From Granulicella sp. (GTDB lineage: Bacteria; Acidobacteriota; Terriglobia; Terriglobales; Acidobacteriaceae): a stretch of 37,134 nucleotides of DNA. The notes under the pieces were generated by a model. That model did not search any database and was not told the DNA's origin. It saw only the letters and a program-made list of their open reading frames with translations. Positions 15,646 through 30,302 of this stretch are shown in pieces. Position numbers and translations under genes: made by a program. The stretch lies in the NCBI GenBank assembly GCA_003142235.1, contig PLOU01000140.1:1-37134 (forward strand). The letters run 5' to 3'. The stretch's first letter is position 1. Every line of letters starts with the position of its first letter.

Positions 15646-15859
15646 TCGCCCTTCCCAATCGTGCGCATCCCCTTGAAAATTGACGAAAACGGGACCTGGT
15701 GCGGTGTACTGGCGTACCCGCCGGGTAACCAAATCCTGAGATTAGCCATCCTATTGGTATGAGCGCTCTTTCAGCCGGATGGCTGAGACGAGCGAAGACG
15801 GGACACCGCAGGTCCAACGCATCTACCAGGAGCCGCAGCCACCGTAAATGAGGTTCCAA

Positions 15860-16453
15860 ATGCGTGGATCGAGAGTTCTACTTTGTGCAGCGGCTTTGCT
15901 TACTACCCTGGCTCTGGCTTCAGCGCCGGCGGCAAACGCACAGATTGCGATTGGCGTCCGTCTTCCATCGGTTGGCATTGGCATCGGGGTTCAGCCGGTC
16001 TGTTCCTACGGCTACTACGGCTATGCTCCCTATGCCTGCGCGCCCTACGGTTATTATGGGTCGGGCTACTTCTATAATGGCATTTTCCTGGGCATGGGCC
16101 CATGGGCCAACTGGGGCTATGGCCACGGCTGGGGTGACCATCGCTTCGTCGGCTACGGTGGAGGACGCTATTTCGGCGGTGACGGTAGAGGACGCTATTC
16201 AGGCGGCGGCGGTCGTGGATATGGCGGCGGCGCAGCAGTGCGCGGTGGCCGTGGGTATGGTGGCGGCGGTGCAGCACGCGGTGGCGGCGGTGCAGCACGA
16301 GGCGGCGGTGGTGGAGCACGAGGCGGCGCAGCAGTACGTGGCGGTGGCGCAGCACGCGGCGGTGGTGGTGGTGGAGCACGTGGCGGCGGTGGTGGAGCGC
16401 GAGGCGGCGGCGGTGGTGGAGCGCGAGGCGGCGGCGGTGGTGGACATCGCTAG
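15860..16453 (+). CDS. Secreted Gly/Arg/Ala-rich low-complexity protein
   Basis: Signal peptide MRGSRVLLCAAALLTTLALASAPAANA; Tyr/Gly-rich segment, then tandem (A)RGGGGG(G)A repeats. Start could also be 15848. Confidence 0.65.
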   Translation: MRGSRVLLCAAALLTTLALASAPAANAQIAIGVRLPSVGIGIGVQPVCSYGYYGYAPYACAPYGYYGSGYFYNGIFLGMGPWANWGYGHGWGDHRFVGYGGGRYFGGDGRGRYSGGGGRGYGGGAAVRGGRGYGGGGAARGGGGAARGGGGGARGGAAVRGGGAARGGGGGGARGGGGGARGGGGGGARGGGGGGHR

Positions 16454-16742: not shown

Positions 16743-16818
16743 GTCCCTATCGTCTAGTGGCCCAGGACTCCGCCTGTTCCCGGCGGCGACACAGGTTCGA
16801 ATCCCGTTGGGGACGCCA
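16743..16818 (+). tRNA. tRNA-Glu (anticodon TTC), CCA encoded
   Basis: GTCCCTA...GTCTAGTGGCCCAGGAC...CCGCC-TGTTCCC-GGCGG...GGTTCGAATCC...TGGGGAC-G-CCA. Acceptor pairs GTCCCTA/TGGGGAC (one G-U). T-stem has an A-C mismatch. Confidence 0.92.
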
Positions 16819-17512
16819 ATTTTACTTTTGCATCACTTAACATCTCCAAGGTGCTGAATAGGCATGTCTTAGAGCGGTTCAAAATTCCGTGTTCGGGTGA
16901 GTATGCCAACCCGCCGTCGAACAGCAGAGTTTGAATCCGGTGTCTCTGCTCCGGTGCAGCGAGCTTCCATGCACCCTCAATATCCATCAGGTGAATCTTC
17001 GTGAAGCGCAGGCATGTCTCCTGCGCTGACCGCTGGGACGATATTTCTAGCAGCTCTTCCTCCGTTCGGGCGATCTCCGAAGAGAACTCTATGTTGGCCT
17101 CGCTATACATCTCCTGCGAGATAGTCCCGTCCAACATGGATTCGAGCAACTTGCGCTTGCGCCTCTTCTGCTCTTCGAGTCGAGCCTTCAGCCGCTTAAC
17201 CTCTTTCTCCGAATTGCCCTCCTGGGCGGCCCACTCTTCCGCCACAGTATTCTGGAACGACGCGAGGTCCTGTGTTCCCGGACGCAGACCTCGGACCAAA
17301 GCCAAGAATTCCGCTTCCATCTGCTCACCCCTCAGCTTTACGGCGCGACAATTCCGGTTTCTACACCAGTAATAGGCATAGCTCTTCGTTCTCCCTGAGC
17401 AAAAGCCTCCGGTGAGTGGAAGGCCGCACGAGTCGCACTTGATGAAGCACTTCAGCGGGAAAGCGGGGTTAGTCACGATCAATGTCAAGCGATGCAGGTC
17501 CTTCTTGACCAA
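16754..17512 (-). pseudogene. Truncated large serine recombinase (zinc-ribbon + coiled-coil C-terminal part only)
   Basis: 'FIKCDSCGLPLTGGFCSGRTKSYAYYWCRNRNCRAVKL' recombinase zinc ribbon, then coiled coil (EEQKRRKRKLLESMLDGTISQEMYSEAN). In-frame TAG just upstream of the TTG ORF start, no catalytic Ser domain; C-terminus (SPTGFEPVSPPGT) lies on the antisense strand of the tRNA. Confidence 0.85.
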
Positions 17513-17765: not shown

Positions 17766-18713
17766 CTATTCTGCTTCTACAGGGACCAGCGTCAGCCGTG
17801 CAGTCAGGACCACCAGCGCAACCCAGAGCGAGTCGGCGGCCAGCAGATGCGCTACCTGGGCCCACACCGGAGCCAGCAGGGTTACATCCAGCACGCCGAG
17901 TAGATAGACGGCAGCGAGCAGCGCCAGCACCAAAGCGGAGAGGCCGCGATGGCTGTTCTGCGCCGCCCGCATCAGGATCCAGATCAGAAAAACGCCGGCG
18001 GCGAGGGCGGCCATCGGATGGATCCAGCGCCAGCGCACCAGCCAGCCGCTGGTCGTGGAAAAATCCTGATGCAGGGCCCCGGCCAGCGAAGTCACAGGAA
18101 AAAGCGTGTCGCCCAGCGCCGCCAGCGAACCGGTTACAGCCACCGCCAGAGCCACGAAAATACCAGCCACTGCGGCCAGCGGATTTACCAGGCGAATGCT
18201 CTCCCAGCGATACCCTGTGCGGCGGCACAGCAAGTGCGCGGTCACGGTCAGCGCCGCCAGCAGCAGCAGCGTATTGGTCAGATGCAGTGCCAGAAAGAGG
18301 GGACGCAGCGGCGACTGGCTCTGCGCGGTCAGCCCCAGGGCAACCAGCAAAGCTCCCAGAATCGCCTCCATCACCGTCAGCGCCACCGCGGCCACGGCGG
18401 CTCCCCTGGCCAGATCTCCCCGCACGGTGGAGCGGAAGGTCCACAGCAGCAGCCCCAGAACCGCAACCAGCGAGAGCCCGCTGGTGATGCGGTGGGTGAA
18501 CTCGATGAGGGTATTCAGGCTGGCGGAGTGCTGCAAGACGGTCCCGTTGCACAGCGGCCAGTGGTTCCCGCAGCCGGCTCCAGCCCCGGCGGCGCGGACC
18601 AGTGTTCCCCACAGGATTACGGCAACAAAGTACGCCAAAACGGCCCAGGCAAAGCGCCGCAAGGCAGCAGAAGGCGCCTTATGCGCATTCTTTGAAGCAG
18701 CCGAGATCGTCAT
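17766..18713 (-). CDS. ctaA: Heme A synthase (COX15/CtaA family)
   Basis: 'LVRAAGAGAGCGNHWPLCNG', 'EFTHRITSGLSLVAVLGLLLW', 'LHLTNTLLLLAALT'; next to cytochrome oxidase operon. Confidence 0.92.
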   Translation of the reverse strand: MTISAASKNAHKAPSAALRRFAWAVLAYFVAVILWGTLVRAAGAGAGCGNHWPLCNGTVLQHSASLNTLIEFTHRITSGLSLVAVLGLLLWTFRSTVRGDLARGAAVAAVALTVMEAILGALLVALGLTAQSQSPLRPLFLALHLTNTLLLLAALTVTAHLLCRRTGYRWESIRLVNPLAAVAGIFVALAVAVTGSLAALGDTLFPVTSLAGALHQDFSTTSGWLVRWRWIHPMAALAAGVFLIWILMRAAQNSHRGLSALVLALLAAVYLLGVLDVTLLAPVWAQVAHLLAADSLWVALVVLTARLTLVPVEAE

Positions 18714-18863
18714 GGAAGCTTCCAGACCCCCCCCCAGTGTAAATCAGAGAATCCACCGCCAACTGCCGCGCATCACAAACAATACAAGCCCCTTATTATT
18801 GTCCAGACGCGCAAAGGACAAACGGCAGGTGCGGCAGCCCACGGCAGGTGATTGGAGAGTAGG

Positions 18864-19940
18864 ATGAGTTTGGCCTTGTTTCTGGCGTTGCACGACATGG
18901 ACGACATGCCTGCCGGACACGCAATGACTGCAATGCAAACGCACGAGTCCTGGTGGCGTCGGGCCATCCAATGGGTTACGGGCCTGTTCAGCACCCCCAC
19001 CAGCATCTTCTCTCCGCAGGCTACGCCGGCACACACGATCTTCAGCCTGTCCATGCTGGTTCTGGCCATTACGCTGGCCATCTTTCTGGCCGTGGCGGGG
19101 TTGATGCTCTACGCCATCATCCGCTTCCGCCATCGCGCCGGCGACTCCAATGCCGATCCAACGCAGGTCTACGGCAGCAATCAGATCGAAGTGCTGTGGA
19201 CGGTGATTCCGATTCTGATTCTGGTGGTGCTTTTTCTGTCCACCGCTCGCGTCATCTCCGTAAACGAGCAGGCGCGCAAGCCTGCCAACGCGCTGGACGT
19301 GGTGGTGATTGGCCATCAGTATTGGTGGGAATATCGCTATCCGGCCTCGGGCGTGGTTACGGCCAATGAACTGCATCTTCCCGCCAGCGACCCGAAGGCC
19401 CCCACGCCCACCTACATGACCATGTCCTCGGCCGACGTCGATCACAGCTTCTGGGTGCCGAATCTGGCCGGCAAGATGGATCTGATTCCCAACAAGGTCA
19501 ATGTCATGTGGATCGATCCGCACAAACCGGGCCTCTATCTGGGCCAGTGCGCGCAGTATTGCGGCACGGCACACGCCAAGATGCTGATCCGCGTTTACGT
19601 GGACTCGCCGGCGGATTTCGCCAAGTGGATTGCCCATCAGAAAATGGCGGCGGAAGACGATCCGGCGGCAGCCGAGGGCAGGCTGGCCTTTGAACACACC
19701 GCCTGCGTCAACTGCCACACCGTGAACGGCACTTCGGCCAAAGGCAAATTCGGTCCCGATCTGACGCACTTGGCCAGCCGCGACACCATCGCTTCCGGCG
19801 CGATCAGGAACACGCCGCAAAACCTGCGCCAATGGATCGACGATCCCAACTCGATGAAGCCCGGATCGCTGATGCCGAAGATGAATCTGAGCAGCCACGA
19901 ACTGGACGCGATCACGGCCTACATGGTCTCGTTGCGCTAA
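18864..19940 (+). CDS. ctaC: Cytochrome c oxidase subunit II with fused C-terminal cytochrome c domain (caa3-type)
   Basis: CuA site 'GQCAQYCGTAHAKM'; 'QIEVLWTVIPILILV'; heme c motif 'CVNCHTVNG' with distal 'SLMPKM'. Confidence 0.95.
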   Translation: MSLALFLALHDMDDMPAGHAMTAMQTHESWWRRAIQWVTGLFSTPTSIFSPQATPAHTIFSLSMLVLAITLAIFLAVAGLMLYAIIRFRHRAGDSNADPTQVYGSNQIEVLWTVIPILILVVLFLSTARVISVNEQARKPANALDVVVIGHQYWWEYRYPASGVVTANELHLPASDPKAPTPTYMTMSSADVDHSFWVPNLAGKMDLIPNKVNVMWIDPHKPGLYLGQCAQYCGTAHAKMLIRVYVDSPADFAKWIAHQKMAAEDDPAAAEGRLAFEHTACVNCHTVNGTSAKGKFGPDLTHLASRDTIASGAIRNTPQNLRQWIDDPNSMKPGSLMPKMNLSSHELDAITAYMVSLR

Positions 19941-19971: not shown

Positions 19972-21657
19972 ATGATGCCCCCGCAGACGGCCGGTGCGAT
20001 GACCTTTGATTCCCCGCCCTCTCATCCGAAGCTGTGGCTCGACGCGGTGAATGAATGGTTCACCACCGTAGACCACAAGCGCATCGGGATGCTGTATATC
20101 GGCTACGCGCTGGTCTTCCTGCTCATCGCCGGGCTGGAAGCCGCCGTGATGCGCATCCAGTTGGCCGTGCCCAACAATCACTTCGTCTCGCCCCAGGTCT
20201 TCAATCGCATGTTTACCATGCACGGCACGACGATGGTCTTCTTCGTGGGCATGCCGATTCTCTTCGGCTTTGGCAACTACCTTATCCCGCTGATGATCGG
20301 CGCGCGCGACATGGCCTTTCCCCGCCTCAACGCCTTCAGCTTCTGGATCTCCGCCTTCGGTGGACTGCTGCTTTACTTCAGCTTCATTGGCGGCGATGGT
20401 TTGTATGGCGCGGGCACGGCGCCGGATGTGGGCTGGTTTGCTTATGCGCCGCTCACAGCCAAGCTCTTCTCGCCCGGTCACAGCACCGACTACTGGATTC
20501 TCGGCGTCTTCCTGAGCGGCATCGGCAGCGTGGGCACGGCGCTGAATATCGTGACCACCATTGTCTGCATGCGCTGCAAGGGCATGACCATGGCCAGAAT
20601 GCCGTTGCTGCCCTGGCTCTATCTGGTCACCTCGGCGATGGTCTTCATCGCCATCGGCCCGCTCACCGCGGCGCAGATGATGCTGGGCTTCGACCGTTTT
20701 CTGGGCGCGCACTTCTTCGATGTGCAGGCCGGCGGGTCGGCTGTCTTGTGGATGCACTTCTTCTGGATCTTCGGCCATCCCGAGGTCTACATCCTGGTGC
20801 TCCCCGCCTTTGCCTTCGCCAACGAGATCATCCCCGTCTTCTCGCGCAAGCCCATCTTCGGCTACTCGGCGATGGTCGGCGCGACGGTGCTGATCGGCTT
20901 CATCAGCCTGGGCGTCTGGGCGCATCACATGTTCACCGTGGGCCTGGGTCCGGCGGGCAACACCTTCTTCACGCTGGCCACCATGATTATCTCCGTGCCC
21001 ACCGGCATCAAGATCTTCAACTGGCTGGCCACGCTGTGGGGCGGCAAGATTCGCTTCGCCACGCCCATGATCTTCTCCATCGCCTTCCTCTTTCAATTTC
21101 TGATCGCGGGCCTGACCGGCATCATGCTCTCCGCCGCGCCCTTCGACTGGCAGTTGGGCAACTCCTACTTCGTGGTGGCGCACTTCCACTTCGTATTGGT
21201 CGGCGCGATTCTCTACATGATCTTCGCCGCCTTCTACTACTGGTTCCCCAAAATGTCTGGCAAAATGCTGAGCGAGACGCTGGGCAAGTGGCACTTCTGG
21301 CTCTTCACCATCGGCTTCCATCTCACCTTCGACTTCATGCATATCCCCGGCTTGATGGGAATGCCGCGCAGAATCTACACCTACGAGGCCGACCGCGGCT
21401 GGGCCGTGTGGAACATGATCGAGAGCATCGGCATGATCTTCCAGGCAGCGGCCATCCTCATCTTCGTATGGAATGTGGTTCGCTCCTATCGTCACGGCGA
21501 AGAAGCCGGCCCCGATCCGTGGGATGCGTGGACGCTGGAGTGGTCCACCGCATCGCCTCCGCCGCACTACAACTTTGCCGAGGAGCCGGTGGTGCATAGC
21601 CGCCGTCCCCTGTGGGACCTCAAACATCCCCAAGCACCCGACTCCGACTACGAGTAG
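19972..21657 (+). CDS. ctaD: Cytochrome c oxidase subunit I
   Basis: 'FTTVDHKRIGMLYI', 'FTMHGTTMVFFVGMP', 'FFWIFGHPEVYILVLPAF', 'VWAHHMFTVGL', 'HFHFVLVG'. Confidence 0.97.
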   Translation: MMPPQTAGAMTFDSPPSHPKLWLDAVNEWFTTVDHKRIGMLYIGYALVFLLIAGLEAAVMRIQLAVPNNHFVSPQVFNRMFTMHGTTMVFFVGMPILFGFGNYLIPLMIGARDMAFPRLNAFSFWISAFGGLLLYFSFIGGDGLYGAGTAPDVGWFAYAPLTAKLFSPGHSTDYWILGVFLSGIGSVGTALNIVTTIVCMRCKGMTMARMPLLPWLYLVTSAMVFIAIGPLTAAQMMLGFDRFLGAHFFDVQAGGSAVLWMHFFWIFGHPEVYILVLPAFAFANEIIPVFSRKPIFGYSAMVGATVLIGFISLGVWAHHMFTVGLGPAGNTFFTLATMIISVPTGIKIFNWLATLWGGKIRFATPMIFSIAFLFQFLIAGLTGIMLSAAPFDWQLGNSYFVVAHFHFVLVGAILYMIFAAFYYWFPKMSGKMLSETLGKWHFWLFTIGFHLTFDFMHIPGLMGMPRRIYTYEADRGWAVWNMIESIGMIFQAAAILIFVWNVVRSYRHGEEAGPDPWDAWTLEWSTASPPPHYNFAEEPVVHSRRPLWDLKHPQAPDSDYE

Positions 21658-21665
21658 ACAGGCTT

Positions 21666-22262
21666 ATGAGCGCACATACCGCGGTATTGACGCAATCCAC
21701 CGGCGAATGGCAGTTGCCCGACAAAGGCAAGGTGGGAATGATTTGCCTCATCGTGGCCGAGGCGGCAATCTTCATCATCTTTGTCCTTGCCTACATCTTT
21801 TACCTCGGCAAAAGCCTCAGCGGCCCCACACCCGCCGAAGTGCTCAAGCTGCCGGTCCTGGGAACCGTGTGTTTGTTGTCCAGCAGTCTCACCGTACACT
21901 TCGCGGTGACTGCTTTAGAGAGAAACGCGGCGCGGTTGAGTGCCCTGTGGCTGGCGCTGACGGTGTTGCTGGGCGGCATCTTTCTCGCCGGCACCGCGGT
22001 GGAGTGGCATGAGCTGATCTACAAATACGGCTTGACCATTCGCACCAATCTCTTTGGCACAACCTTCTATTCGCTGGTTGGCCTGCATGCTTCGCACGTT
22101 ATCGTGGGCCTGGGCATGTTGGGCCTGGCGCTGCTCTTCGCAGTGGCGGGCAAGCTGAACGGCAGCCACGCGCATCGACTGAACGTCCTCTCGTATTATT
22201 GGCATTTCGTGGACGCGGTGTGGGTGGTGGTCTTCATCGTCGTCTATGGACTGGGAAGGTAA
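21666..22262 (+). CDS. ctaE: Cytochrome c oxidase subunit III
   Basis: 'KVGMICLIVAEAAIFIIFVLAYIFYL', 'GTTFYSLVGLHASHVIVGLGML', 'YYWHFVDAVWVVVFIVVY'. Start corrected from 21612 to ATG 21666. Confidence 0.94.
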   Translation: MSAHTAVLTQSTGEWQLPDKGKVGMICLIVAEAAIFIIFVLAYIFYLGKSLSGPTPAEVLKLPVLGTVCLLSSSLTVHFAVTALERNAARLSALWLALTVLLGGIFLAGTAVEWHELIYKYGLTIRTNLFGTTFYSLVGLHASHVIVGLGMLGLALLFAVAGKLNGSHAHRLNVLSYYWHFVDAVWVVVFIVVYGLGR

Positions 22263-22263
22263 G

Positions 22264-23115
22264 GTGAACGCAGTGCAAGAGCCGGGAAAAGGAATGCACG
22301 CAGAACACACCGCATCGCTGCATCTGCCCGCGCCCACGGTATGGCCCATGGTGCTGGGCCTGGGCATCACGCTGATTGCAGCCGGCCTCGTCACAAACGA
22401 GACCATCAGCGTGCTGGGCCTGGTCCTCTCTTCGATGGCCGCGGTCGGTTGGTTCCGCAACGTGCTGCCGCGCGAGAAGCAAGAGCAGATCACGGTGCCG
22501 GTCTCCGCCGAGGCCGCGGCCCAGGCGTCAGCGCAACCATTCCGTTCGCCGCACACGCCCGTCCTCGTGCGCCCCGCCTACAGCTTCGTCTCCGGCATCG
22601 AAGCCGGACTGGCGGGCGGCGCAGCCATGGCCATCATCGCAATCGTCTTCAGTTGGATCAAGTTTCACAGCCTCTGGTACGGCATCAATCTGCTGGCCGC
22701 GGGCAGCTTCATCGGATGGACAGATGCGCCCGACAGCTTCCTCAGCCAGTTCCATCCGCAGGGACTTTTGGCCGCGCTGGCCATTCACGCCCTGGTCTCC
22801 GTGCTGGTGGGCCTGCTCTATGGCGCGATGTTGCCAATCTTCCCGCGCAAGTCGCTGCTGACTGCCGGATTGATTGCTCCGCTGCTGTGGTCTGCCCTGG
22901 CCTGCTCCATGATGAAGGTCGTCAGCCCCATCCTCAGCGAACGCATGAATTGGTGGTGGTTTGTGCTCTCCCAGGTCGCCTATGGACTGGTTGCGGGAGC
23001 AGTGATCAATCTTCGCGTCAAGGTGCGCTCAGCCGAGTTTCAGGCGCTTCCTTTCGCCACGCGCGCGGGCTTGCATACCGATGCAAAGATCGGCAAAGAC
23101 GAGGGCCGGCGATGA
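22264..23115 (+). CDS. Membrane protein: CoxIV-like two-TM N-terminus joined to a further ~4-TM domain of unknown function
   Basis: 'PTVWPMVLGLGITLIAAGLVTNETISVLGLVLSSMAAVGWFRNVLP' resembles small caa3 subunit IV. Then 'AYSFVSGIEAGLAGGAAMAIIAIVFSWIKFHSLWYGINLLAAGS...'. Start could be ATG 22246 or GTG 22264. Confidence 0.7.
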   Translation: MNAVQEPGKGMHAEHTASLHLPAPTVWPMVLGLGITLIAAGLVTNETISVLGLVLSSMAAVGWFRNVLPREKQEQITVPVSAEAAAQASAQPFRSPHTPVLVRPAYSFVSGIEAGLAGGAAMAIIAIVFSWIKFHSLWYGINLLAAGSFIGWTDAPDSFLSQFHPQGLLAALAIHALVSVLVGLLYGAMLPIFPRKSLLTAGLIAPLLWSALACSMMKVVSPILSERMNWWWFVLSQVAYGLVAGAVINLRVKVRSAEFQALPFATRAGLHTDAKIGKDEGRR

Positions 23116-23849
23116 GCGGAACCACGCCAACAACTCCTCGCATCGCTCTCGTTCTAGCGGGCTGCATGATGCTCGTCCTCGCCGGATGCCGCGCTCCAGG
23201 CAAGCCCGGCCCTGCCGAACCAAGGCCCGATCGGGTGATGGAGTTTGCCAAACTCTACAAACAGAATTGCGCCGCCTGTCACGGAGAGGAGGGCAAGCGC
23301 GGCCTGGCTGTATCGCTTTCCAACCCCGTCTACATCGCCATCGCCGGTAAGGAGGCGGTCCTCAATGCAACGGCCAAAGGCGGACCCGGCAAGCTGATGC
23401 CGGCTTTCGCCAAAAGTTATGGTGGGACGCTGACCGATGCGCAGATTGAAGTGCTGGCCGACGGCATCGTGCGGCACTGGGGACAACCCCAACTGCTGGC
23501 CGGAAAAAACCCGCCTTCGTATGCAGCCACGCTGGCGGGCGATGCCGCGGCAGGCAACGCGGCTTACACGGCCTATTGCACGCGCTGCCACGCAGAGGAG
23601 GCAATCGACAAGACGCACATTGCAGGCCCCATTACCGATGCGAATTATCTGGCGCTGATCAGCGATCAGGGACTGCGCACCGCAATTCTTTCCGGCCGTC
23701 CCGAAGAAGGCATGCCGGACTGGCGCGGCATTGCACCCAGGCCCTTGACCGATCGGCAGGTCACCGACATCGTTGCGTGGCTGGCCTCGTTGCGCAAGAC
23801 ACCCGCTTCACCGAACACCGCCTCAAGCAAGGAGAAGAGCCATGAGTAA
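23112..23849 (+). CDS. Diheme c-type cytochrome lipoprotein
   Basis: Lipobox-like 'LVLAGCRAPG'; two CXXCH: 'CAACHGEEG' and 'CTRCHAEEA'. ATGA overlap with preceding gene; listed ORF start 22341 is spurious. Confidence 0.9.
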   Translation: MSGTTPTTPRIALVLAGCMMLVLAGCRAPGKPGPAEPRPDRVMEFAKLYKQNCAACHGEEGKRGLAVSLSNPVYIAIAGKEAVLNATAKGGPGKLMPAFAKSYGGTLTDAQIEVLADGIVRHWGQPQLLAGKNPPSYAATLAGDAAAGNAAYTAYCTRCHAEEAIDKTHIAGPITDANYLALISDQGLRTAILSGRPEEGMPDWRGIAPRPLTDRQVTDIVAWLASLRKTPASPNTASSKEKSHE

Positions 23850-24522
23850 ACCGACTGAAGAAACTCCGTTGCCTGCACCCTCGGAGTGGCTCGGCACGAC
23901 CAAAGAGATCGAGGACGCGCACACCAGCGCAACCTCGCGGCGCAGATTTCTCTTCAAGATGGCGATTGGTCTGAACGCTGTGGTGGGCGCGATTCTGGCT
24001 GTGCCGATTGTCGGCTTTCTGCTGGGTCCAGCGATGAAGAAAGAAGGCGCGGAGGACAAATGGATTGCGCTCGGCGCGGTCGATTCCTTTCCGATTGGCG
24101 AGACGCGGCTGGCCGAGTACGTGAATCCCATCACCAGCCCCAGCGATGGCGACACCGCGAAGACGGTCGCGTGGGTTCGTCACGCCGACGATGGAACCTT
24201 TCAGGTATTCGCCATCAATTGCGCCCATCTGGGTTGCCCGGTGCGCTGGTTCGAGCAATCCAAGCTCTTCCTCTGCCCCTGCCACGGCGGCGCGTATTAT
24301 GCCGACGGTTCGCGCGCATCGGGCCCACCGGAGCGTGGGCTCTTCGAGTACCTGCACCGCATCGAAGGCGGCAACTTGATGGTTCGCGCCGGGCAATTGC
24401 CCACGCTATCCACCCAGGCCTGCGCGGGCAAGGCTCCGCTGGTCGGGATTGCAGCGCAGCCGTCCACGCCGGGCTTGCTTGCCATTCAGGCGCCGGCCGC
24501 CGCGCCGCCAGAGAGGTCCTAG
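23842..24522 (+). CDS. Rieske 2Fe-2S protein of a cytochrome bc complex
   Basis: 'CAHLGCPVRWFEQSKLFLCPCHGGAYYADGSRASGPPERGLFEY'; N-terminal 'SRRRFLFKMAIGLNAVVGAIL' TM/Tat-like segment. ATG at 23842. Confidence 0.95.
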   Translation: MSKPTEETPLPAPSEWLGTTKEIEDAHTSATSRRRFLFKMAIGLNAVVGAILAVPIVGFLLGPAMKKEGAEDKWIALGAVDSFPIGETRLAEYVNPITSPSDGDTAKTVAWVRHADDGTFQVFAINCAHLGCPVRWFEQSKLFLCPCHGGAYYADGSRASGPPERGLFEYLHRIEGGNLMVRAGQLPTLSTQACAGKAPLVGIAAQPSTPGLLAIQAPAAAPPERS

Positions 24523-26037
24523 ATGAAAGACCTGAAGCAGCGCGGGCTGCGCATCTTCCAGTGGTTCGAGAAACGCACCGGCCTGCTGAAGCCGCTTGAA
24601 GAGATGGCCCGGCATCCTACGCCGTCTTCTGCCGCCAGTTGGTGGTACGTCTTTGGCAGCGCGGCCATGGTGCTGTTGATCATGCAGGTGATGACCGGCA
24701 TTCTGCTGGCCCTGGTCTATTCGCCCAGCGCGAGCAATGCCTACGCCAGCCTGCAATTCATCAATCACAACCTGCGGCTGGGCTGGTTTTTGCGCGCCAT
24801 GCACGGATGGGGATCGGACTTCATGATCGCCATCGTGCTCATTCACATGATGCAGGTTTTTCTCTTTGGCGCATACAAATATCCGCGCGAGCTGACCTGG
24901 ATCGCGGGCGTCTTTCTGCTCTTGCTCACCCTGGGCATGGCCTTCACCGGACAGGTGTTGCGCTTCGATCAGGACGCCTACTGGGGCCTGGGCATTGGCG
25001 CTTCCGTCACCAGCCGCATTCCGTTCATCGGCGCTCCCATGGTGCATCTCTTGCTGGGCGGACCGATCATCGGCGGCGCCACGCTTTCGCGCTTCTTTGC
25101 GCTGCACGTCTTCCTGATTCCCGCTCTGCTGCTGGCCTTCGTGGGACTGCACCTGCTGATGGTTCTGCGCCTGGGAATCAATGAATGGCCGATGCCGGGG
25201 CGTCTGGTGCGCAAGTCGGATTATGACCGCAATTACGTGGCTTTGACCAAATCCACCGGCGTTCCTTTCGTGCCGGATGCCGCGTGGAAAGACGCTGTCT
25301 TTGCGGCAGTCATCCTGCTTGCCGTGATGGCCTGCGCTTTCTTCTTCGGTCCCTTTGGCCCGGGCGGCCAGCCGGATCCGACCATCATTCAAACCGTGCC
25401 GCGTCCCGACTTCTTCTTCCTCTGGCTCTATGCCGTGCTGGCCTTCCTGCCGCCGGAGATGGAGACTCCAGCCCTGCTGATTGCTCCCGTGGCGATCGTC
25501 GGCGGACTGCTCTTGTTGCCGCTGATTGCAGGCGAGGGAGAGAAGCATTGGTCGCGCCGGCCGGTTGCGGTCCTCATGGTCACGCTGATCGCTGTCACGC
25601 TGGGCACATTCACTCACCTTGGCCTTCATACGCCGTGGAGTCCGGCGATGGATTCGTGGTCCAGCGATCCCGTGCCGGCGTCTTTTGTCGAGCATAGAAC
25701 CCCGCTGGAACGGCGCGGCGCCTTGCTGCTGCAACAGAAGCAGTGCCGCAACTGCCATTCCATTGGAGGCGTGGGAGGAAGGCGCGGCCCCGCTCTGGAT
25801 GCGGTTGCAACCGAGATGACCGGGGACCAGATCGTTCGCCAGATTCTGCAAGGCGGCGGCAATATGCCGGCCTACGGCAAGGCGCTCAGCCCGGAAGAAA
25901 CCACCGCCATCACGCAGTACCTGCGAACGCTGCGCGGACCAGGATTGCGTCCGGCGGCCGATGCTTCGCAGGGCTTGCAGCCACAGAACGCCTCGCATCC
26001 GGTTGACTCAACCAAGGGTGCATCGGGTGCGCCATGA
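24523..26037 (+). CDS. Cytochrome b (b6/subunit-IV-like) with C-terminal cytochrome c domain
   Basis: 'SWWYVFGSAAMVLLIMQVMTGILLALVYSPS', 'LRAMHGWGSDFMIAIVLIHMMQVFLFGAYKYPRE'; C-terminal 'KQCRNCHSIGG' and 'GGNMPAYGKAL'. Confidence 0.94.
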   Translation: MKDLKQRGLRIFQWFEKRTGLLKPLEEMARHPTPSSAASWWYVFGSAAMVLLIMQVMTGILLALVYSPSASNAYASLQFINHNLRLGWFLRAMHGWGSDFMIAIVLIHMMQVFLFGAYKYPRELTWIAGVFLLLLTLGMAFTGQVLRFDQDAYWGLGIGASVTSRIPFIGAPMVHLLLGGPIIGGATLSRFFALHVFLIPALLLAFVGLHLLMVLRLGINEWPMPGRLVRKSDYDRNYVALTKSTGVPFVPDAAWKDAVFAAVILLAVMACAFFFGPFGPGGQPDPTIIQTVPRPDFFFLWLYAVLAFLPPEMETPALLIAPVAIVGGLLLLPLIAGEGEKHWSRRPVAVLMVTLIAVTLGTFTHLGLHTPWSPAMDSWSSDPVPASFVEHRTPLERRGALLLQQKQCRNCHSIGGVGGRRGPALDAVATEMTGDQIVRQILQGGGNMPAYGKALSPEETTAITQYLRTLRGPGLRPAADASQGLQPQNASHPVDSTKGASGAP

Positions 26038-26867
26038 ACGATGCCAATGCCTGGCAGGACCTCATGCGCGATTGGACCCTGCCGCTGCCTTTGACGTGCA
26101 GCATCGCGCTCTCGGCCGTTGTCTATTTCGTCGGATGGATGCGTATCCGGCGCACGCGGCCCAGGCAGTTTCCCGTGTGGCGGCTCTGCTGCTTTGAACT
26201 GGGCATGGCAGTCTTGTGGGGCGCGATTGCTTCGCCCATGGACGAGTTGGCCGACGCTCTGCTCAGCGCGCACATGATCGAGCATCTGCTGCTGATGTCG
26301 GTTGTTCCTCCGCTGGTTCTGTTGGCAGCGCCGGTAGTCCCCATGCTGCGCGGGCTGCCGCGGTGGGCTTTGTTTGTGCTGCGTCCGCTGCTCCGGGCGG
26401 CATGGTTGCGGCGCGCATTCGGTTTTTTATTGAAGCCCCTTCCAGCATGGCTGATGATGAACCTGACCTTCCTCGCCTGGCACGTGCCGGCGGCTTACGA
26501 CTTTGCCTTGGAAAATGAGGCTTGGCACGACATCGAGCACCTGTGCTTTCTGCTCACGTCGCTGCTCTTCTGGAATTGCCTGATTCGTCCCTGGCCATCG
26601 CGCAAGCGGCACTTCGGATGGATGCTGTTGCCCTATCTGGTGGGCGCGGACCTGGTCAACACCATGCTCTCGGCTTCGCTGGCCTTCTGCGGACGCCCGG
26701 TGTATCTCTACTACGTCAAGAACCCGAATCCATTTGGCGTTTCGCTGCTCGACGATCAAGTGCTGGGCGCGATGCTGATGTGGGTCTTTGGTTCGATCGC
26801 CTTTCTGGGACCGGCCATGTGGATTACGGTACGGCTGCTCGATCAACGCAAGGAGCGTCTCGCATGA
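26034..26867 (+). CDS. ctaG: CtaG/caa3-type cytochrome c oxidase assembly factor
   Basis: 'SAHMIEHLLLMSVVPPLVLLAAP', 'WHDIEHLCFLLTSLLFWNCLIRPWP', 'DQVLGAMLMWVFGSIAFLGPAMWI'. Confidence 0.88.
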   Translation: MNDANAWQDLMRDWTLPLPLTCSIALSAVVYFVGWMRIRRTRPRQFPVWRLCCFELGMAVLWGAIASPMDELADALLSAHMIEHLLLMSVVPPLVLLAAPVVPMLRGLPRWALFVLRPLLRAAWLRRAFGFLLKPLPAWLMMNLTFLAWHVPAAYDFALENEAWHDIEHLCFLLTSLLFWNCLIRPWPSRKRHFGWMLLPYLVGADLVNTMLSASLAFCGRPVYLYYVKNPNPFGVSLLDDQVLGAMLMWVFGSIAFLGPAMWITVRLLDQRKERLA

Positions 26868-27886
26868 ATCCTTCCTTACAAATAGCCGAAGAGCCGCTGG
26901 TTTCCATCGGCAGCCTGCCGCCATCGTCCCCCGCGCGCAACCAGCCGGTCCCGCATCCGATTCACATTCATGCGCCCAGTCCCGGGGCCACGGCAACGCT
27001 GCTGCACGACTGCTTTGTACTCTTCAAAGTGCGAGTTGTGACGCTTGTGCTGGTCACCGCGTGGGGCGGCTACTATCTGGGCGCGATGGACTCCGGCGTA
27101 TCCAGCGTGCAGCGCGGCTTGCTCGGTGCATTGTTGGGCATCGGGCTGGTCTCCGCCGGCGCCGGAGCGCTCAATGAAGCCCTGGAACGCAAGACCGACG
27201 CGCGGATGAAACGCACCGCCGATCGCCCCCTCGCCGCTGGACGCTTCTCGCTTGCGCAGGGTGTGATGGCCGGCATGGGCGCGCTGTCCCTGGGCGCGTT
27301 GGACCTGCATTTCTTCGCCAATCCACTCACCACGCTGCTGGCGCTGCTGACCGCGTTTGCCTACGTTGCGGTGTACACGCCGCTCAAGCGCGTTACCCCT
27401 CTGGCCACTTTCATCGGTGCATTTCCCGGCGCCATGGGGCCGATGCTGGGATGGACAGCGGCGCGTGGACGCATCGAGTGGCCCGGCGTTGCGCTCTTCG
27501 CCATTCTCCTGGTCTGGCAATTTCCCCACTTCATGTCCATCGCCTGGCTCTATCGCGAAGACTATGCGCGCGCGGGCATTCGTATGCTTCCGGTTGTGCA
27601 TCCGGATGGATGGTCCACCGTGGTTCAGGCCCTGGTCTTTGCCGTCCTGATGATTCCTGTAAGCCTCGCGCCGTGGCGGCTGGGCATGGCGAGCGGAACC
27701 TATGCGGTTCTGGCTGTCCTGCTCGGCTTGATCTATCTGGCATATACTCTTCGCTTCATGCGTATCCTGCTCCCTATCCCCGAGGCAGAAAGCCGCATGG
27801 TGGCCCGCGATCTCCTCAAGGTGAGCGTGCTCTATCTGCCGCTGCTCTTCACCATATTGATGCTGTGCGCTACGCGCAGTTTATGA
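26864..27886 (+). CDS. ctaB: Protoheme IX farnesyltransferase (heme O synthase)
   Basis: 'LFKVRVVTLVLVTAWGGYYLG', 'NEALERKTDARMKRTADRPLAAGRF', 'YTPLKRVTPLATFIGAFPGAMGPMLGW'. Start corrected to ATG 26864 (4-nt overlap with ctaG). Confidence 0.94.
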   Translation: MNPSLQIAEEPLVSIGSLPPSSPARNQPVPHPIHIHAPSPGATATLLHDCFVLFKVRVVTLVLVTAWGGYYLGAMDSGVSSVQRGLLGALLGIGLVSAGAGALNEALERKTDARMKRTADRPLAAGRFSLAQGVMAGMGALSLGALDLHFFANPLTTLLALLTAFAYVAVYTPLKRVTPLATFIGAFPGAMGPMLGWTAARGRIEWPGVALFAILLVWQFPHFMSIAWLYREDYARAGIRMLPVVHPDGWSTVVQALVFAVLMIPVSLAPWRLGMASGTYAVLAVLLGLIYLAYTLRFMRILLPIPEAESRMVARDLLKVSVLYLPLLFTILMLCATRSL

Positions 27887-29272: not shown

Positions 29273-30302
29273 GTGGGGTAGCTGCCTTAGTACAGTAGCC
29301 ACTACAGGTTGTGTTTTGAGGTCGTATGGGTGGCTCTTGATGGCCGATACCGCATCGGCTGTGTTGCCACAGCATTTTCCAGCAAGCGATAGAAGAGCAT
29401 TCCCCGACGGCGTGATTTCCTGCGATTGAAGCGAAAGGCGAACTCATCCAGGTATGCATCCAGATGCGCGGCGGTGACCGAACCTTGATGCGTTCCCAGC
29501 AGCCAACGTTTCAGCAGCGATGCGATCTTATGGACCCCCGGCATGACCACATGCGCTGGATCGCCGCTACTGGAGATACTGACAGCATGATGCTGGTAGC
29601 CTTCCTTTGCCAACCCCGCATAGCCCTTCCAGCCATCGGTGCGCACCTGTGATCCCGGCTCAATTGCGAACTGCACAAAGGGAATCAGACTGCGTGAGGA
29701 AGCATCCACTACCCGCTTGAGCCGCACCCGCCCGAAGCCTATCGGTGAAAGCACTTCGATCGCGATGGCCACGATGAACTTACGTTCCGTGCCGCGTCCG
29801 CCTTGCTCGATGCCGCCCACATAGGTTTCGTCTACCTCAACTGAGCCTTGGAGTCGCTCGCGGCCAGGACGCACCATGGCGGCCCGCAACTTGCGCAGCA
29901 TCGTCCAGGCCGTCTGATAGCTGCCCAGGCCGAGAAGTCGCTGTAGGCCCAACGCGCTGACGCCATACTTCTGGTTGGTCATGAACCAGATGGTGGTAAA
30001 CCAGTCGGCCAGCGGTACGCGGCTGCGGTCGAAGATCGTTCCTGCCGTCACAGACACTTTGCGAGCACAGCCAGCACAGGTCCATCGCCCGTTGGGCAAG
30101 CGCCAACCCTTTTCACTGGAGCATTTTGGACATGTAAAACCATTCGGCCAGCGCAAGCGCTCCAAGTAGGCAATGCAGGCTTGTTCATCCGGGAACCAAG
30201 CTCGGAACTGCTGCCAAGTGGCCGGATAATCAAGCCCCAAATCGAGTTTTGCCTCGGAAACCACTACATATAGATCTTACTGTACTAAGGCAGCTACCCC
30301 AC
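29273..30302 (-). mobile_element. IS1595-family (ISXO2-like) insertion sequence
   Basis: 25-bp perfect terminal inverted repeats GTGGGGTAGCTGCCTTAGTACAGTA (29273-29297) / TACTGTACTAAGGCAGCTACCCCAC (30278-30302), flanked by direct repeats TTGGTTCAA (29264-29272 and 30303-30311). Confidence 0.93.
29302..30264 (-). CDS. IS1595 family transposase (ISXO2-like)
   Basis: N-terminal zinc ribbon 'CPKCSSEKGWRLPNGRWTCAGC'; DDE-like 'VEVDETYVGG', 'VRTDGWKGY', 'HLDAYLDEFAFRFNRR'. Confidence 0.93.
   Translation of the reverse strand: MVSEAKLDLGLDYPATWQQFRAWFPDEQACIAYLERLRWPNGFTCPKCSSEKGWRLPNGRWTCAGCARKVSVTAGTIFDRSRVPLADWFTTIWFMTNQKYGVSALGLQRLLGLGSYQTAWTMLRKLRAAMVRPGRERLQGSVEVDETYVGGIEQGGRGTERKFIVAIAIEVLSPIGFGRVRLKRVVDASSRSLIPFVQFAIEPGSQVRTDGWKGYAGLAKEGYQHHAVSISSSGDPAHVVMPGVHKIASLLKRWLLGTHQGSVTAAHLDAYLDEFAFRFNRRKSRRRGMLFYRLLENAVATQPMRYRPSRATHTTSKHNL

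Follow-up and report, generated by a model that had tools for sequence, protein, structure and literature searches.

Introduction

Subunit III of the M. smegmatis oxidase is divided between two polypeptides, CtaE and CtaF, the second of which supplies the equivalents of helices 1 and 2, and together the two mediate the contacts between III2 and IV (reviewed in PMC8361435); the same review describes an F. johnsoniae subunit III that has no helices 1 and 2. For the Acidobacteria, the passages of Trojan et al. (2021; PMC8407424) drawn on here describe a superoperon of bc1 and A1-type caa3 oxidase genes and report its expression, state that acidobacterial low-affinity oxidases work at nanomolar oxygen, and include among the strains Edaphobacter sp. 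TAA 166, with a single A1 caa3 oxidase. Both the superoperon (described in 2021) and the principle of a split subunit III are therefore established, and what a literature search of open-licence papers did not bring up is any account of a fusion between a subunit III hairpin and the four-helix domain considered here. The fusion is encoded in a contig of Granulicella sp. (PLOU01000140.1, assembly GCA_003142235.1), analysed as a stretch of 37,134 nucleotides referred to below as the window. We put at about 0.7 the probability of the reading developed here, that the gene encodes a structural caa3 subunit which completes a split subunit III and whose C-terminal bundle of four transmembrane (TM) helices stabilises, through its contacts, either the oxidase or the link between oxidase and bc complex.

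The operon and the gene

The gene belongs to a superoperon of an acidobacterial metagenome-assembled genome (MAG) with the order coxB-coxA-coxC-[gene]-diheme cytochrome c-Rieske-cytochrome b-ctaG-ctaB, all on the plus strand and recognised by family matches. Ahead of the gene lie coxB (18852-19940), for a subunit II with the C-terminal cytochrome c of the caa3 type, coxA (19972-21657), for a subunit I without extra C-terminal helices, and coxC (21666-22262), a PF00510 match for a subunit III without TM1-TM2. Beyond it the bc module begins with a diheme cytochrome c lipoprotein (23112-23849), the translation of which shows two CxxCH motifs and a lipobox-like cysteine, and there follow the Rieske iron-sulfur protein (23836-24522), a cytochrome b that ends in a cytochrome c domain (24523-26037), the caa3 assembly factor CtaG (26034-26867) and a ctaB-like UbiA prenyltransferase gene of approximate start (26804-27886), and a divergent ctaA/COX15 neighbour occupies the minus strand at 17766-18713. 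The genome of Edaphobacter sp. TAA 166 carries the gene as well (locus L092), and the gene goes unmentioned in the main-text passages of Trojan et al. (2021; PMC8407424). Flanking the respiratory region on either side are, by eye, a transposase-like ORF (29302-30264, minus strand) and a recombinase-fragment-like one (16754-17512, minus strand), and a short ORF with a long repetitive tail rich in Gly, Arg and Ala is found at 15848-16453 (plus strand).

The first-pass annotation had placed an ORF of 283 aa, with the layout of a hairpin plus a multi-TM domain and no family assignment, between coxC and the diheme cytochrome c gene. The ORF is indeed there, and only its 5' end needs revision: of the three in-frame starts (ATG 22246, GTG 22264 and ATG 22294), the 283-aa form uses GTG 22264, and alignments of homologues favour ATG 22294 instead because many of them start at a similar distance ahead of a conserved LPAPT motif. 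The resulting gene spans 22294-23115 (plus strand) and encodes 273 aa. Its reading frame stays open across the full length in more than 100 homologous loci of roughly 35-60% identity, which at the level of sequence rules out a chance ORF. The product also remains unassigned, since no Pfam or NCBIfam family scores above its curated cut-off for the 273-aa protein; the homologue scores read contain no Pfam family above cut-off either, an NCBIfam search of 26 members returned nothing useful, and a plasmid collection held no match to the gene.

Six TM helices are predicted, and the AlphaFold2 model (273-aa numbering throughout) reproduces the proposed layout, with TM1 (17-33) and TM2 (36-57) followed by a low-confidence linker and four long helices (98-124, 155-182, 187-210 and 220-242). 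On the DNA, the hairpin module delimited by profile and HMM comparisons (residues 8-66 or thereabouts) corresponds to 22315-22491, the linker (58-97), part of which is the low-confidence region of the full-length model, to 22465-22584, the C-terminal 4-TM domain (98-242), with a distant resemblance to DUF6789 considered below, to 22585-23019, and the tail (243-273) to 23020-23112. From the model and loop charges the linker is predicted to be cytoplasmic. Basic residues occur at the start of TM3 and in the TM4-TM5 loop, and the topology is compatible with cytoplasmic location of both termini, if weakly so, because the linker and the C-terminal tail are about neutral.

The N-terminal hairpin and subunit III

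When a profile built from 26 homologues was compared with all PDB sequences, the matches at E<=1 were N-termini of subunit III only, namely yeast Cox3 (E=0.0011 and 0.002), the R. sphaeroides protein (0.064) and two more Cox3 chains, with alignments that begin at the very N-terminus and extend through TM2 (Cox3 residues ~2-72). The CtaF family, PF12270, matched 23 of the 26 homologues, with a best E of 6e-6. In the alignments read, the part of the 132-position profile that falls on the hairpin is 83-125, and the scores read lie below the gathering cut-off of 26.9 bits (14.0 for the window protein and 25.9 for the best member). Foldseek comparison of the full-length model with the PDB likewise ranked CoxIII chains first, and these matches were set aside as structural proof because of their values (E about 0.05, TM about 0.19).

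The neighbouring oxidase genes leave room for such a hairpin. CoxC has five TM helices by hydropathy, and the last hydrophobic segment of CoxA covers residues 485-503 of 561, with no extra hairpin, so that the piece absent from both is the one that the gene supplies. Homology of the hairpin, this complementarity with CoxC and CoxA, and the published CtaE/CtaF split together make the N-terminal module best read as the missing TM1-TM2 of a split subunit III. The label "CoxIV-like" given to the hairpin earlier holds in the sense of actinobacterial CtaF and PF12270, and is better restated in these terms. In the assembled complex, by analogy with CtaE and CtaF, the hairpin would sit beside CoxC.

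Other placements of the hairpin turned up within the same phylum. In a neighbouring family, f2, the hairpin HMM recognises the N-terminal end of CoxIII, there a 7-TM protein (best E=6.5e-5). In genome G249 it recognises an extension at the C-terminus of a CoxA that is 691 aa long (E=5.3e-5; L212, G249:C6, 6492-8564, minus strand); this extra hairpin resembles CoxIII TM1-TM2, and the CoxA is followed by a 5-TM CoxC. In a third setting it stands by itself: a search of the family with the profile of 26 homologues yielded, as a single example (n=1), a gene directly before that for the Rieske protein (L217, G565:C187, 8438-8713), the product of which ends soon after the hairpin. This gene is part of a second, diverged bc-caa3 operon in G565, of the order coxB-coxA-coxC-ctaG-hairpin-Rieske-cytb, with 54% (coxA), 37% (coxC), 37% (Rieske) and 40% (cytochrome b) identity to the operon in the window. 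Single-sequence searches of the family and the phylum gave no second clear hairpin-only gene, and a PDB search with the hairpin-only protein gave nothing useful. As the G565 sister operon indicates, a hairpin lacking the C-terminal domain can exist; the domain has been either gained in operons of the window type or lost in those of the G565 type.

The C-terminal 4-TM domain

Modelled separately with AlphaFold2 on 81 sequences, the C-terminal domain again forms four long helices (mean pLDDT 92.6, pTM 0.86). Foldseek found no match to this separate domain in the PDB (best E=1.0, TM about 0.2), nor did its sequence profile match any PDB sequence, and across Pfam, PDB sequences and Foldseek searches of the PDB neither a characterised transporter family nor a solved fold was matched. 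The one family seen with a near full-length alignment was DUF6789 (PF20587), in 8 of the 81 members (best E=1e-5), and a search of genomes with the DUF6789 model independently matched the gene. The bit scores read, 13.7 for the window protein and 20.4 and 21.9 for others (L162/G195), all lie below the gathering cut-off of 27.1, and profile-profile comparison (hhalign) with five acidobacterial DUF6789-type proteins returned probabilities of 2-5%; the relation is kept as a distant one because this comparison gave it no support. Pfam matches to TIC20, DUF3742, DUF697, VIT1, EhaA and Rce1-like families were sporadic and sub-threshold, and were rejected as chance matches between TM segments.

Conservation within the domain is of a structural kind. 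Across the 81 sequences 20 columns are invariant, mostly Gly, Pro, Trp, Tyr, Phe and Asn, and the conserved patterns include GxxxGxxG and LLYGAxLPxxP. Apart from two basic positions close to the ends of TM3 and a TM4 His that is almost invariant, the helices in the 26-sequence alignment show no conserved charge, acidic residues included, and the alignments contain no conserved Cys or Met-rich motif and no redox or transporter-like residues in the domain. This pattern speaks for a putative packing or scaffold role rather than for catalysis or transport. A multi-TM domain without an above-threshold family invites the thought of a small transporter or channel that has nothing to do with respiration and is simply fused to the hairpin or co-transcribed with the operon; a match to a well-characterised unrelated transporter family was also an outcome that, in the first-pass annotation, would refute its own proposal. 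With no such match in these searches, no conserved acidic residue in the helices and, among the loci examined, occurrence only within this operon, we regard a transporter or channel as very improbable.

An assembly or cofactor-delivery module, for copper or heme, fused to a structural hairpin would suit an operon that contains ctaG and ctaB homologues and is adjoined by ctaA on the other strand. The presence of these CtaG, CtaB and CtaA homologues also speaks against it, as does the residue conservation, which centres on Gly, Pro, Trp, Tyr, Phe and Asn plus the near-invariant TM4 His and includes no Cys or Met-rich motif. Such a module is improbable, less so than a transporter, and a scaffold within a structural oxidase subunit remains the reading we prefer.

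Linkage to bc-caa3 operons

Searches of 61 relatives' genomes recovered full-length homologues in 25 of the 37 genomes that make up the genus group of the window, its own genome among them, and matches over the hairpin only in four genomes of the neighbouring family. The context coxA/coxC-[gene]-cytc2 is kept in all loci examined, 25 among these relatives and then 105 in a set drawn partly from the same genomes, as far as the contigs reach, and within these loci the gene never occurs outside oxidase operons linked to bc genes. In the 12 genomes of the genus group that do not carry the gene there is also no comparable match to the diheme cytochrome c of the operon (best E about 1e-10, vs 1e-45 to 1e-71 in gene-bearing operons), and in a sample of 150 genomes of the family the 52 that carry the gene are the same 52 that carry a cognate coxC (threshold E<=1e-40). 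Absence of the gene from otherwise identical operons, the other refuting outcome named in advance, was not encountered in the loci and samples examined; the diverged sister operon of G565 does lack the C-terminal domain. In a sample of 396 genomes of the phylum the full-length gene is confined to this family, the single match outside it being to the hairpin only. By contig name, the carriers belong to Granulicella, Edaphobacter, Acidicapsa, Acidipila, Terriglobus and to related acidobacterial MAGs; the gene is present three times in genome G034 and twice in G014, with matching copies of the cytochrome c gene alongside.

A few loci depart from the rule in detail. In G035 (L021, L108) the gap between coxC and the gene is about 670 bp, vs the usual 0-90 bp. 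A homologue in G524 (L215, G524:C5, about 1334863 in the contig), broken in TM3 with its second part in another frame, was considered as a natural fission and rejected, an assembly error being possible, and a partial copy in G450 stops where its contig ends. In another acidobacterial family, a Rieske search located a window-like cytochrome c-Rieske-cytochrome b cluster (L262, G241:C789), on a contig that starts inside the cytochrome c gene, ahead of the slot of interest.

In conservation the C-terminal domain equals the Rieske protein of the operon, with a mean pairwise identity of 0.65 vs 0.64, and it has pairwise distances that track those of CoxA, CoxC and cytochrome b (r=0.86-0.89). Such correlations are expected for a subunit, and likewise for any gene that travels in the operon, through shared descent.

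The strict association with bc genes bears on a more specific proposal, in which the hairpin is a working oxidase subunit and the 4-TM domain serves specifically to dock the bc complex and keep it against the oxidase. Restriction of the gene to bc-linked oxidase operons speaks for it, the III-IV contacts of M. smegmatis are made by CtaE and CtaF (PMC8361435), and in genome G086 Rieske and cytochrome b genes are directly followed by the gene of a 4-TM protein that stands alone and matches DUF6789 below threshold (L210, G086:C199, 203-694, minus strand). Set against this, the sister bc-caa3 operon in G565 encodes the hairpin but not the domain, and among the stand-alone DUF6789-type loci inspected only the one in G086 adjoins bc genes. 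Dedicated docking is a tentative proposal, with the odds against it. Its evolutionary extension, a lineage-specific supercomplex factor through which the Acidobacteriaceae would have reached III-IV supercomplexes by a route independent of the Actinobacteria, the 4-TM domain fused to the hairpin docking the bc complex on the oxidase, we consider unlikely, if still worth entertaining. The first-pass suggestion of a structural bridge between oxidase and bc modules is, in its general form and by analogy with M. smegmatis, plausible.

Proposed role

In the favoured reading the protein would be a structural subunit of an A1-type caa3 oxidase whose genes share an operon with those of its bc complex. 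The hairpin would stand in for TM1-TM2 of subunit III alongside the 5-TM CoxC and the CoxA that has no additional helices, and would complete the split subunit as CtaF does for CtaE in mycobacteria. Through the linker, predicted to be cytoplasmic, it would be joined to the C-terminal 4-TM bundle, which probably lies at the edge of the oxidase, where its contacts with proteins or lipids may lend stability to the oxidase or to the pairing of oxidase and bc complex; that the bundle itself touches the bc complex is speculative.

Two consequences follow for the wider field. Subunit III of heme-copper oxidases is modular, in that a single phylum has the TM1-TM2 hairpin fused to CoxIII, fused to CoxI, alone, or fused to a new 4-TM domain. 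The hairpin plus 4-TM form, found in an oxidase co-encoded with a bc complex, can moreover be tested as a candidate supercomplex-specific subunit of soil bacteria that are abundant.

Comparison with known systems

The operon in the window is of the same kind as the acidobacterial bc1-A1 caa3 superoperon described in the passages cited above (Trojan et al., 2021; PMC8407424). For the C-terminal domain the nearest family is DUF6789 (PF20587), a 4-TM family of unknown function, nearly the whole profile of which is covered in the alignments read, although the scores read for the window family lie under the cut-off and the hhalign probability is 2-5%. The N-terminal module has several counterparts. 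It aligns to residues ~2-72 of canonical 7-TM subunit III (COX3, PF00510), and in f2 the hairpin physically is the N-terminus of CoxIII, whereas in the window two genes share subunit III, and the one for the hairpin encodes an extra domain as well. The CoxA with a C-terminal hairpin in G249 (L212) has the same hairpin sequence pattern and a 5-TM CoxC partner, but there the hairpin is fused to subunit I, of which it is free in the window operon. A further parallel is CtaF, subunit IV of the actinobacterial aa3 oxidase (PF12270), which is likewise a separate subunit that gives a TM1-TM2 equivalent beside a 5-TM CtaE, and which in the III2IV2 supercomplex of M. smegmatis belongs to an oxidase tied to its bc complex. 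In PF12270 the hairpin lies at the C-terminal end (83-125 of 132), whereas the Acidobacteriaceae protein has it at the N-terminus, followed by a different, 4-TM domain.
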